Of a DNA stretch of 64,000 nucleotides, positions 11,256-12,435 are shown one piece after another. Every line of letters begins with the position of its first letter. The first letter of the stretch is position 1. Below the pieces are notes generated by a model. That model was not told the DNA's origin. It searched no databases and saw only the letters and a program-made list of their open reading frames with translations. Both the position numbers and the translations under genes were made by a program. The stretch covers positions 1 through 64,000 of IMG/VR virus record IMGVR_UViG_3300036790_000419, one strand, 5' to 3'. This DNA comes from a virus.

Positions 11256-11293
11256 GAGAGCCCCTGTCCGGCGATGACCGGACAGGGGCTCTC
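11256..11293 (+). terminator. Hairpin terminator without U-tract
   Basis: Perfect 16-bp stem, arms 11256-11271 and 11278-11293, loop of 6. No T-run follows, as is common for actinobacterial terminators. It separates the 10320 operon from the sigma-like gene. Confidence 0.8.
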
Positions 11294-11306
11294 GCGCGTC
11301 GCTACG

Positions 11307-11978
11307 ATGCCGCTCATGCCTGAGTTCGCCGACCTGTACGCCGAGCACCTGCCTGCGGCCCGCAGGGCGGCCCTGGCCCTGGTGCCCGCCGACGCGGCCG
11401 ACGACATCGCGCACGAGGCGTTCGCCCGCGTGCTGGCCCGCCAGGCAGCCGGGGGAGGCCCTGACGGGGCGTTCCGCCCCTACCTGCTGGCAGCGGTGCG
11501 CAACCTGGCGCGGGACTGGCTGGCCGAGCGCAGGCGCACCGTGCCCGCTCCCCTGGACCCGCGCGCGGTGCGCGTGCCCGGTGCCGGCGAGCTGGTGACC
11601 GCGGCCGAGGAGCGGCGGATGACCCGCCGGGCGTTCGGCTCGCTGCCGGCCCGCTGGCGCGCGGTGCTGTGGCAGACCGAGGTGGAGGGGCGCACGCCCG
11701 CCGAGCTGGGGCAGGCCTCCGGCATGAGCCCCAACGCGGTGGCCGCGCTCGCGCTGCGGGCCCGGCTCGGGCTGGCGCTGGCGTGGCAGCGCGAGCGCGG
11801 CACCCAGGAGCGGCTGACCGGCCCCGCTCCGGCCCTGGTCAGGCTGGCGGAGAGAAAATACCAGAGAGCACTTGACACGAGTCAAGCTGATCGTTTATCT
11901 TTAAGAGGTCAGGCAGGGAGAAGCGGGTTCGAGTCCCGCCCCGTCCCGAATGGGGCGGGATGGTCTAGGCCAGGTTAA
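11307..11978 (+). CDS. ECF-like sigma factor
   Basis: Region 2 is recognisable (FADLYAEHLPAARRAALALV...DDIAHEAFARVL, then FRPYLLAAVRNLARDWLAERRR) and region 4 as FGSLPARWRAVLWQTEVEGRTPAELGQASGMSPNAVAALALRARLGL (about residues 110-155). These match actinobacterial sigma-70 family ECF proteins. The conserved body ends near 11860; the last 35 residues read through the promoter at 11871 and the RNA locus and are probably not functional. ATG 11316 is an alternative start. No operator precedes it, so it may be expressed when the rest of the element is repressed. Confidence 0.8.
   Translation: MPLMPEFADLYAEHLPAARRAALALVPADAADDIAHEAFARVLARQAAGGGPDGAFRPYLLAAVRNLARDWLAERRRTVPAPLDPRAVRVPGAGELVTAAEERRMTRRAFGSLPARWRAVLWQTEVEGRTPAELGQASGMSPNAVAALALRARLGLALAWQRERGTQERLTGPAPALVRLAERKYQRALDTSQADRLSLRGQAGRSGFESRPVPNGAGWSRPG
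11871..11901 (+). promoter_or_regulatory. Operator-promoter of the non-coding RNA locus
   Basis: Operator CTTGACACGAGTCAAG (11871-11886); -35 TTGACA 11872-11877, 18 bp, -10 TATCTT 11896-11901. It lies inside the 3' end of the sigma-like reading frame. No coding gene with the standard leader follows; the transcript enters the tRNA-like structure. Confidence 0.8.
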
Positions 11979-12430
11979 GGCGCCCTGCCGGGCACAACCG
12001 GCTGACCGGTCGCATGCTCACCCCGGAGACGCGGGGCGAGTTGCTGGCGCAGGCTGGCTAAGACTTCCCGGGCCGCCGCGCGGCGGCACCTGGCGAACGC
12101 CTGAGTCGCGGGGCGCGAAGCTCCCGGACAACACGGCTCCGGACCAGGGAAAGCCGCACGGCAGCCCGGGATCCCAAAACTCAACAGAGCTGCTGGCCAG
12201 TGCGCCTCAATCAGGAGCCGATCTCCGGCCCTGGCCAGTACAGACGAGGGGTCTCGTTCGAGGCGAGGCGGTATCCAGTCCGCCTTTACCTGCCACCCGG
12301 CGCAAGCCGGGCCGTGGCCGACACGTGACGGCAGGGCTTGGGGTTCGTGACCCGACAGTGAACTCGGTTCCCCCTCGCGAACGCCCTAGCGGATGTCTCG
12401 GTTGCCTGCCCTGCCCGCTAGGGCGTTCGC
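11905..12430 (+). ncRNA. Structured RNA with circularly permuted tRNA-like fold
   Basis: From the 5' end: a strand GGCAGGG (11912-11918), a canonical T-arm (stem GCGGG 11923-11927, loop TTCGAGT, stem CCCGC 11935-11939), an acceptor 3' strand CCCGTCCC (11940-11947), a four-base GAAT link, the acceptor 5' strand GGGGCGGG (11952-11959), a D-arm-like hairpin (GTCT 11963-11966 with AGGC 11978-11981, loop containing GG) and CCCTGCC (11983-11989), which pairs with GGCAGGG as the anticodon-type helix. The 3' half thus precedes the 5' half. A further helix GGTCA/TGACC (11907-11911, 12003-12007) extends it. No U33 or clear anticodon is present. Downstream is a short frame (12014-12061) and possible ends at about 12287 or 12430. 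It could be a permuted tRNA, a two-piece tmRNA-like RNA or a tRNA mimic. Confidence 0.6.
12377..12430 (+). terminator. Hairpin terminator
   Basis: Perfect 16-bp arms 12377-12392 and 12415-12430 with a 22-nt loop, just before the next operator. An earlier weaker hairpin with TTT (AGGCGG...CCGCCTTT, about 12265-12287) could also end the RNA. Confidence 0.75.
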
Positions 12431-12435
12431 ATTGT

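Follow-up and report, generated by a model that had tools for sequence, protein, structure and literature searches.

What kind of RNA is encoded at a phage locus in which the two halves of a tRNA-like structure follow one another in reversed order? The window analysed here covers the first 64 kb of the 148,913-base record of a tailed phage; its host is a soil bacterium, probably an actinobacterial one given the 70.6% G+C content and portal relatives that occur mostly in actinophages. The virus carries 33 tRNA genes detectable with ARAGORN, located at about 88.4-93.3 kb, with none inside the window. The original prediction, which placed at this locus a non-coding RNA with tRNA halves in permuted order joined by GAAT, had considered a permuted tRNA gene and a permuted two-piece tmRNA as possible identities. 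The features of the locus are as follows; Pro slot denotes the position after a tRNA-Pro gene in related viruses.

11871-11901, + strand: phage operator-promoter with inverted repeat CTTGACACGAGTCAAG (11871-11886), -35 element TTGACA (11872-11877) and -10 element TTATCT/TATCTT near 11895-11901
11912-11918, + strand: anticodon-stem 3' strand GGCAGGG, first in order, pairing with 11983-11989 and covarying among Pro-slot homologues
11923-11939, + strand: T-arm GCGGG TTCGAGT CCCGC, stem 11923-11927 / 11935-11939 and loop TTCGAGT, supported by covariance model R1, a partial Rfam match and folding
11940-11959, + strand: acceptor helix CCCGTCCC GAAT GGGGCGGG, strands 11940-11947 / 11952-11959, covarying
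11963-11981, + strand: D-arm GTCT AGGCCAGGTTA AGGC, stem 11963-11966 / 11978-11981, conserved GG in the loop, on a comparative basis
11983-11989, + strand: anticodon-stem 5' strand CCCTGCC, last in order, supported by folding and covariation
12063-12182, + strand: second module, a helix whose internal-loop strands CCUGGCGAACGCNUGA / AACACNGCUNCGGACCAG are invariant, with conservation across six related viruses
12178-12187, + strand: linker AACTCAACAG between modules, the same as in other non-coding RNA and Y-RNA loci of the group
12242-12293, + strand: third conserved module, 98% identical to its counterpart in related virus G001
12377-12431, + strand: long hairpin GCGAACGCCCTAGCGG ... CCGCTAGGGCGTTCGC, lacking a long T-run; a similar hairpin ends homologous loci

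All the elements of the predicted permuted domain were recovered. In the DNA (11912-11989) the T-arm and acceptor 3' strand come before the acceptor 5' strand and D-arm, the order of 3' half, intervening sequence and 5' half that is typical of permuted tRNA genes. The acceptor helix, closed by GAAT (11948-11951), has 8 bp including the extra G-C pair noticed originally and, on our reading of the sequence, a G3-U70 wobble. The two strands at the anticodon position, whose pairing had likewise been proposed, form a stem of 7 bp with predicted pairing probabilities of 0.9-1.0 in transcripts ending by 12012. The acceptor helix was formed in every tested transcript ending by 12300, and the T and acceptor stems were present in all shorter-than-full transcripts folded; in the full transcript of about 525 nt, single-sequence prediction replaces the permuted domain with a long hairpin. 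The D-stem is absent from the single-sequence minimum-energy fold, its support being comparative.

The locus had also been credited with its own operator-promoter, and a promoter scan at the element found one such site against 0.1 expected. The site belongs to a family, CTTGACTCNAGTCAAG, with dozens of copies in the window (1-64000), and many short genes of the window each have their own operator-promoter of this kind. The same site precedes homologous non-coding RNA loci in G001, G003 and G019, and a variant precedes that of G021. The element, just downstream of this phage promoter, is presumably transcribed as a non-coding RNA. A caveat is that the open frame (11274-11978) of the preceding sigma-factor-like gene (PHROG match) overlaps the permuted element.

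Relatives of the virus were gathered through the portal protein, the neighbour protein having found none as bait; the 33 related records obtained, together with shorter loci, made up 57 contigs and 2.2 Mb of scanned sequence. The structural scan combined a T-arm, an acceptor strand, a spacer, a second acceptor strand, a D-arm with GG and pairing anticodon strands, with ARAGORN tRNAs masked. The window element scored 17.1, whereas five controls, either reversed or block-shuffled, reached 14.8 at most. All 18 matches scoring at least 15 in the 57 contigs fell in tRNA arrays, in clusters judged to be of Y RNAs, or at the window element itself. A covariance model (R1), built from 29 other viral elements and thus excluding the window element from its training set, matched 11913-11988 with 32.7 bits (E 4.3e-10), the only strong match in the 64 kb. 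Since R1 also scores the T-arm/D-arm junctions of ordinary tandem tRNAs it is discriminating only outside arrays, and calls inside arrays rest on the structural scan with ARAGORN masking. In the wider element set both partners varied in 17 of 19 pairs, and pairing held in 96.7% of cells vs 67.8% after shuffling; because the members of this set were chosen for pairing, the reversed and shuffled scan provides the cleaner control. A DNA similarity search against annotated phages returned T-arm matches only, and a pattern containing TGGTCTAG mainly returned ordinary tandem tRNAs.

Homologues of the element were found within the tRNA arrays of related viruses. An 85% identical copy sits exactly between tRNA-Pro(cgg) and tRNA-Pro(tgg) in G003/G004, its anticodon stem being one pair shorter than that of the window copy through a gap on each strand, i.e. 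a paired difference. The slot after tRNA-Ala is occupied in G000, G003, G005, G020 and G021 (the last identified by eye only, having failed the scan), the Pro slot in G003, G005, G014, G017 and G024, and the slot after tRNA-Gln in G000, with a partial element in G020. The gap between an array element and the preceding tRNA is 1-6 nt, and for several elements the following tRNA starts 5-10 nt further on. Their acceptor spacers vary from a few nt to about 75 nt; acceptor-loop inserts of 40-75 nt occur at G024:120155-120246, G020:9590-9645 and G005:52960-53045 (- strand), and by eye those of the Ala slot share a GTACGC...GCGGAAAGCC stretch.

Covariation of the stems in homologous loci had been named beforehand as a point on which the original prediction could fail. 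Within slots of the relatives, both sides of acceptor and anticodon pairs change in step. At acceptor pair 7 of the Ala slot, three viruses have C-G, A-T and T-A; at anticodon pair 2 of the Pro slot, counting the window copy, C-G, A-T and G-C occur, so the prediction withstood this challenge. A conserved anticodon was sought among the elements and none was found. The similarity between window and array copies extends over the opening bases of the tRNA-Pro that comes next (ACAACCGG / ACAACGGG), a weak hint that an array was the source of the window copy. Two further ideas were abandoned: an alanine identity conferred by G3-U70, a feature present in a minority of the elements, and a natural permuted group I intron-exon arrangement, since several elements lie only a few bases from their flanking tRNAs.

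The class that the original prediction had overlooked, and that the sequences appear to fit, is the tRNA-like domain of the bacterial Y RNA YrlA (RF02553), which was the best Rfam match of the window element: a weak, partial match here (19.1 bits, E 0.33; gathering threshold 69) and a good one in relatives, where full-length matches reach E values of 6e-9 and 8e-7 (45 and 38 bits, also below the gathering threshold). YrlA superposes on tRNA in three dimensions by circular permutation (PMC11472068); it is a substrate of DusA and TruB, and its tRNA-like domain binds PNPase (PMC8394870). For this domain, competitive inhibition of an anticodon nuclease has been proposed (PMC7790460). When viral contigs were scanned with a pattern, many RNAs of this permuted plan with paired flanks emerged. 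Among 26 other virus records that carry the permuted domain, 15 had a Ro60/TROVE match (13 above the cut-off). Multi-copy YrlA-type permuted RNAs are common in IMG/VR contigs (L363, L351, L430, L368, L443 and others), and Ro60 is often found elsewhere in the records that carry them. Microbacterium phage Magritte, whose portal is 50% identical, was the nearest relative in culture that we found; it has a Ro-like gene (gp118, "Ro-like RNA binding protein") beside a tRNA array and a Y-RNA cluster. Its annotated tRNA-Arg(tct), at 76028-76104 of OR553905 (L459:26028-26104), overlaps a YrlA match (L459:26036-26162); the tRNA annotation is probably wrong and the RNA a Y RNA.

Clustered Y RNAs carrying a GCUUCCUUC strand occur in G002, G003, G004, G006, G014 and its relatives, and G028. 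Tandem clusters of two to three Y RNAs sharing this strand, at G003:573-966 (- strand), G006:3500-3760, G028:11175-11430 (- strand) and G014:35590-35720, lie near tRNA arrays in viruses without detectable Ro60. No Y-RNA cluster was found in the window virus, and no strand of the GCUUCCUUC type, as expected of a Y-RNA basal stem, was found around the window domain. Ro60 was not found by Pfam in 23 records comprising the window virus and its 20-odd relatives, some of which may be incomplete, nor, in the same viruses, with a phage-specific profile that detected other phage Ro60 proteins at 1e-44 or by tblastn with the Magritte Ro protein. To judge from the sequence, the Ro60-binding basal stem has been lost from the window element or was never present.

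Downstream of the permuted domain the same RNA carries further structured modules. The second, for which no Rfam family was found, recurs at L187:1263-1384, L227:9374-9511 (- strand), L279:9151-9258 (- strand), L261:6483-6584 (- strand) and L281:16121-16207 in addition to 12063-12182 of the window; its strand CCUGGCGAACGCNUGA resembles GGCGAACGGGUGAGUAACAC, which we take to be a stretch of 16S rRNA. The linker AACUCAACAG (variants AACUGAACAG and AACACAACAG) separates modules at 12178 of the window, in the non-coding RNA loci of G003, G005, G017, G021, G023 and G024 and in the Magritte Y-RNA cluster; it is rare elsewhere in these genomes and is a possible processing site. The hairpin at 12377-12431, which the terminator scan did not call, is the probable RNA 3' end or terminator. 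The permuted domain is present at this locus in one virus only, and the syntenic loci of relatives have different 5' modules. As far as comparison of these loci can tell, the domain is grafted as a 5' module onto another conserved structured RNA.

With moderate confidence, we favour the view that the element is a closed permuted tRNA-like domain derived from YrlA, devoid of the basal stem, which forms the 5' module of a longer phage RNA and serves for docking or as a decoy. Comparison across these viruses shows the permuted architecture, the covarying stems, the occurrence between tRNA genes of relatives and the linkage of the class to Ro60, and descent from the YrlA tRNA-like domain appears the most likely origin. 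Transcription from the phage promoter would yield an RNA with the permuted domain at its 5' end; the domain would fold into a tRNA elbow, which elbow-binding host proteins may recognise much as TruB, DusA and PNPase recognise YrlA, and it could thereby act as a decoy for, or a docking site of, host tRNA-binding or tRNA-cleaving enzymes. By analogy, such a role seems the most likely one in a virus with 33 tRNA genes, large phage tRNA sets being thought to offset tRNA-cleaving defences (PMC7824862). The element would not be decoded, as it has no anticodon loop, and is probably not aminoacylated, as it has no free acceptor end.

A working permuted tRNA gene, whose transcript would be ligated within the anticodon loop into a circle, freed of GAAT by RNase P and RNase Z and given CCA, is quite unlikely. 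The short distances to flanking tRNAs in the arrays speak for it, since tRNA processing could there make ligatable ends, and if joined, the G014 element would by eye yield a 7-nt loop, ATAACGA, with U33; in known permuted genes the anticodon loop holds the junction, and the intervening sequence may measure only 1 nt (PMC3978253). The joined loops of the array elements are, however, inconsistent in length, with no conserved U33 or anticodon when the flanks are read by eye (G014 being a possible exception). In the window element the anticodon stem extends to 7 bp and the RNA does not end there, in a virus whose tRNA array already holds 33 tRNAs. We know of no bacterial tRNA-splicing endonuclease and of no bulge-helix-bulge splicing machinery in bacteria. 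RNA ligases of families PF01139 and PF09414 were not found in the 23 records (a PF09511 ligase search had no positive control), but divergent actinophage ligases exist (PMC7824862), and family searches could miss them. A variant that we hold very unlikely would make the array elements genuine permuted tRNA genes and the window copy a derivative: processing of the flanking tRNAs would create ends within the anticodon loop that bear a 5'-phosphate and a 3'-hydroxyl, a divergent ligase would circularise the RNA, and RNase P and RNase Z would open the acceptor loop. If true, this would be the first such pathway in bacteria or their viruses, as no earlier one is known to us. The permuted tRNA gene and the tmRNA of the original prediction went unsupported, with no consistent anticodon loop and no tmRNA match, while its permuted halves within a non-coding RNA held.

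A permuted tmRNA with MLTPETRGELLAQAG (12014-12061) as its tag frame is barely credible: the gene order and the G3-U70 wobble in the acceptor agree with it, but the D-arm has a stem and GG, the other stem is of anticodon type, the proposed frame is absent from the homologous loci read, and searches with Rfam and ARAGORN returned no tmRNA (for Rfam, at the gathering threshold) anywhere in the virus. It is unlikely that the element is a true YrlA RNA whose Ro60 comes from the host or has diverged beyond recognition. The tRNA-like domain is the same, relatives have retained genuine YrlA RNAs, complete with basal stem and GCUUCCUUC motif, and a short outer stem, at best of 5 bp and across a bulge, could form between GGTCA (11907-11911) and TGACC (12000-12004). 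We do not class the element as a Y RNA because a basal stem and Ro60 were not found and other modules follow downstream. Improbable, too, is a functionless remnant, either an array element copy in decay or what is left of the halves of two neighbouring tRNAs. The resemblance to the Pro-slot element of G003 and to the first bases of the tRNA behind it would fit such an origin, as would the occurrence at this locus in a single virus; against it, all helices are intact, the paired difference is kept, a promoter lies directly upstream, and the slots of relatives are retained with covariation.

If the element is a YrlA-derived domain, the tRNA-mimic half of Y RNAs has been separated from Ro60, being kept and covarying in this virus group while Ro60 goes undetected, and appears to have moved in among genuine tRNA genes and onto a further RNA. 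The usefulness of the mimic itself thereby becomes testable, for instance as a decoy for tRNA-cleaving defences. In addition, phage tRNA annotation misses or misnames such elements.

Among known systems, the circularly permuted tRNA genes of red and green algae and Thermofilum (PMC3978253, PMC3218864) likewise have the 3' half first, a short intervening sequence and a break in the anticodon region; unlike them, the element has no anticodon loop and no sign of ligation or of an added CCA. Permuted two-piece tmRNAs of alphaproteobacteria, betaproteobacteria and cyanobacteria share the encoding of the acceptor 3' strand before the 5' strand, whereas the element has a canonical D-arm and anticodon-type stem, no match to tmRNA models and no credible tag. 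YrlA (RF02553, structure 6CU1) has the T-arm, closed acceptor helix and D-arm in the same circularly permuted order, and its domain is joined to the rest of the RNA via the stem at the anticodon position. The window element differs in being fused to other structured modules and in having neither a Ro60-binding basal stem nor a Ro60 found in the virus, so that the functional setting of YrlA is missing; its homologues differ in lying inside tRNA arrays, some with 40-75 nt in the acceptor loop. Phage Ro60/Y RNA pairs (Magritte gp118; the ROT/TROVE genes of jumbo phages, PMC7824862) also combine YrlA-type RNAs with a phage setting near tRNA arrays, whereas the window virus and its close relatives keep tRNA-like domains without detectable Ro60. 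What appears new here is a YrlA-type mimic that stands alone, interleaved with the tRNA genes of relatives and placed as the first module of another non-coding RNA.
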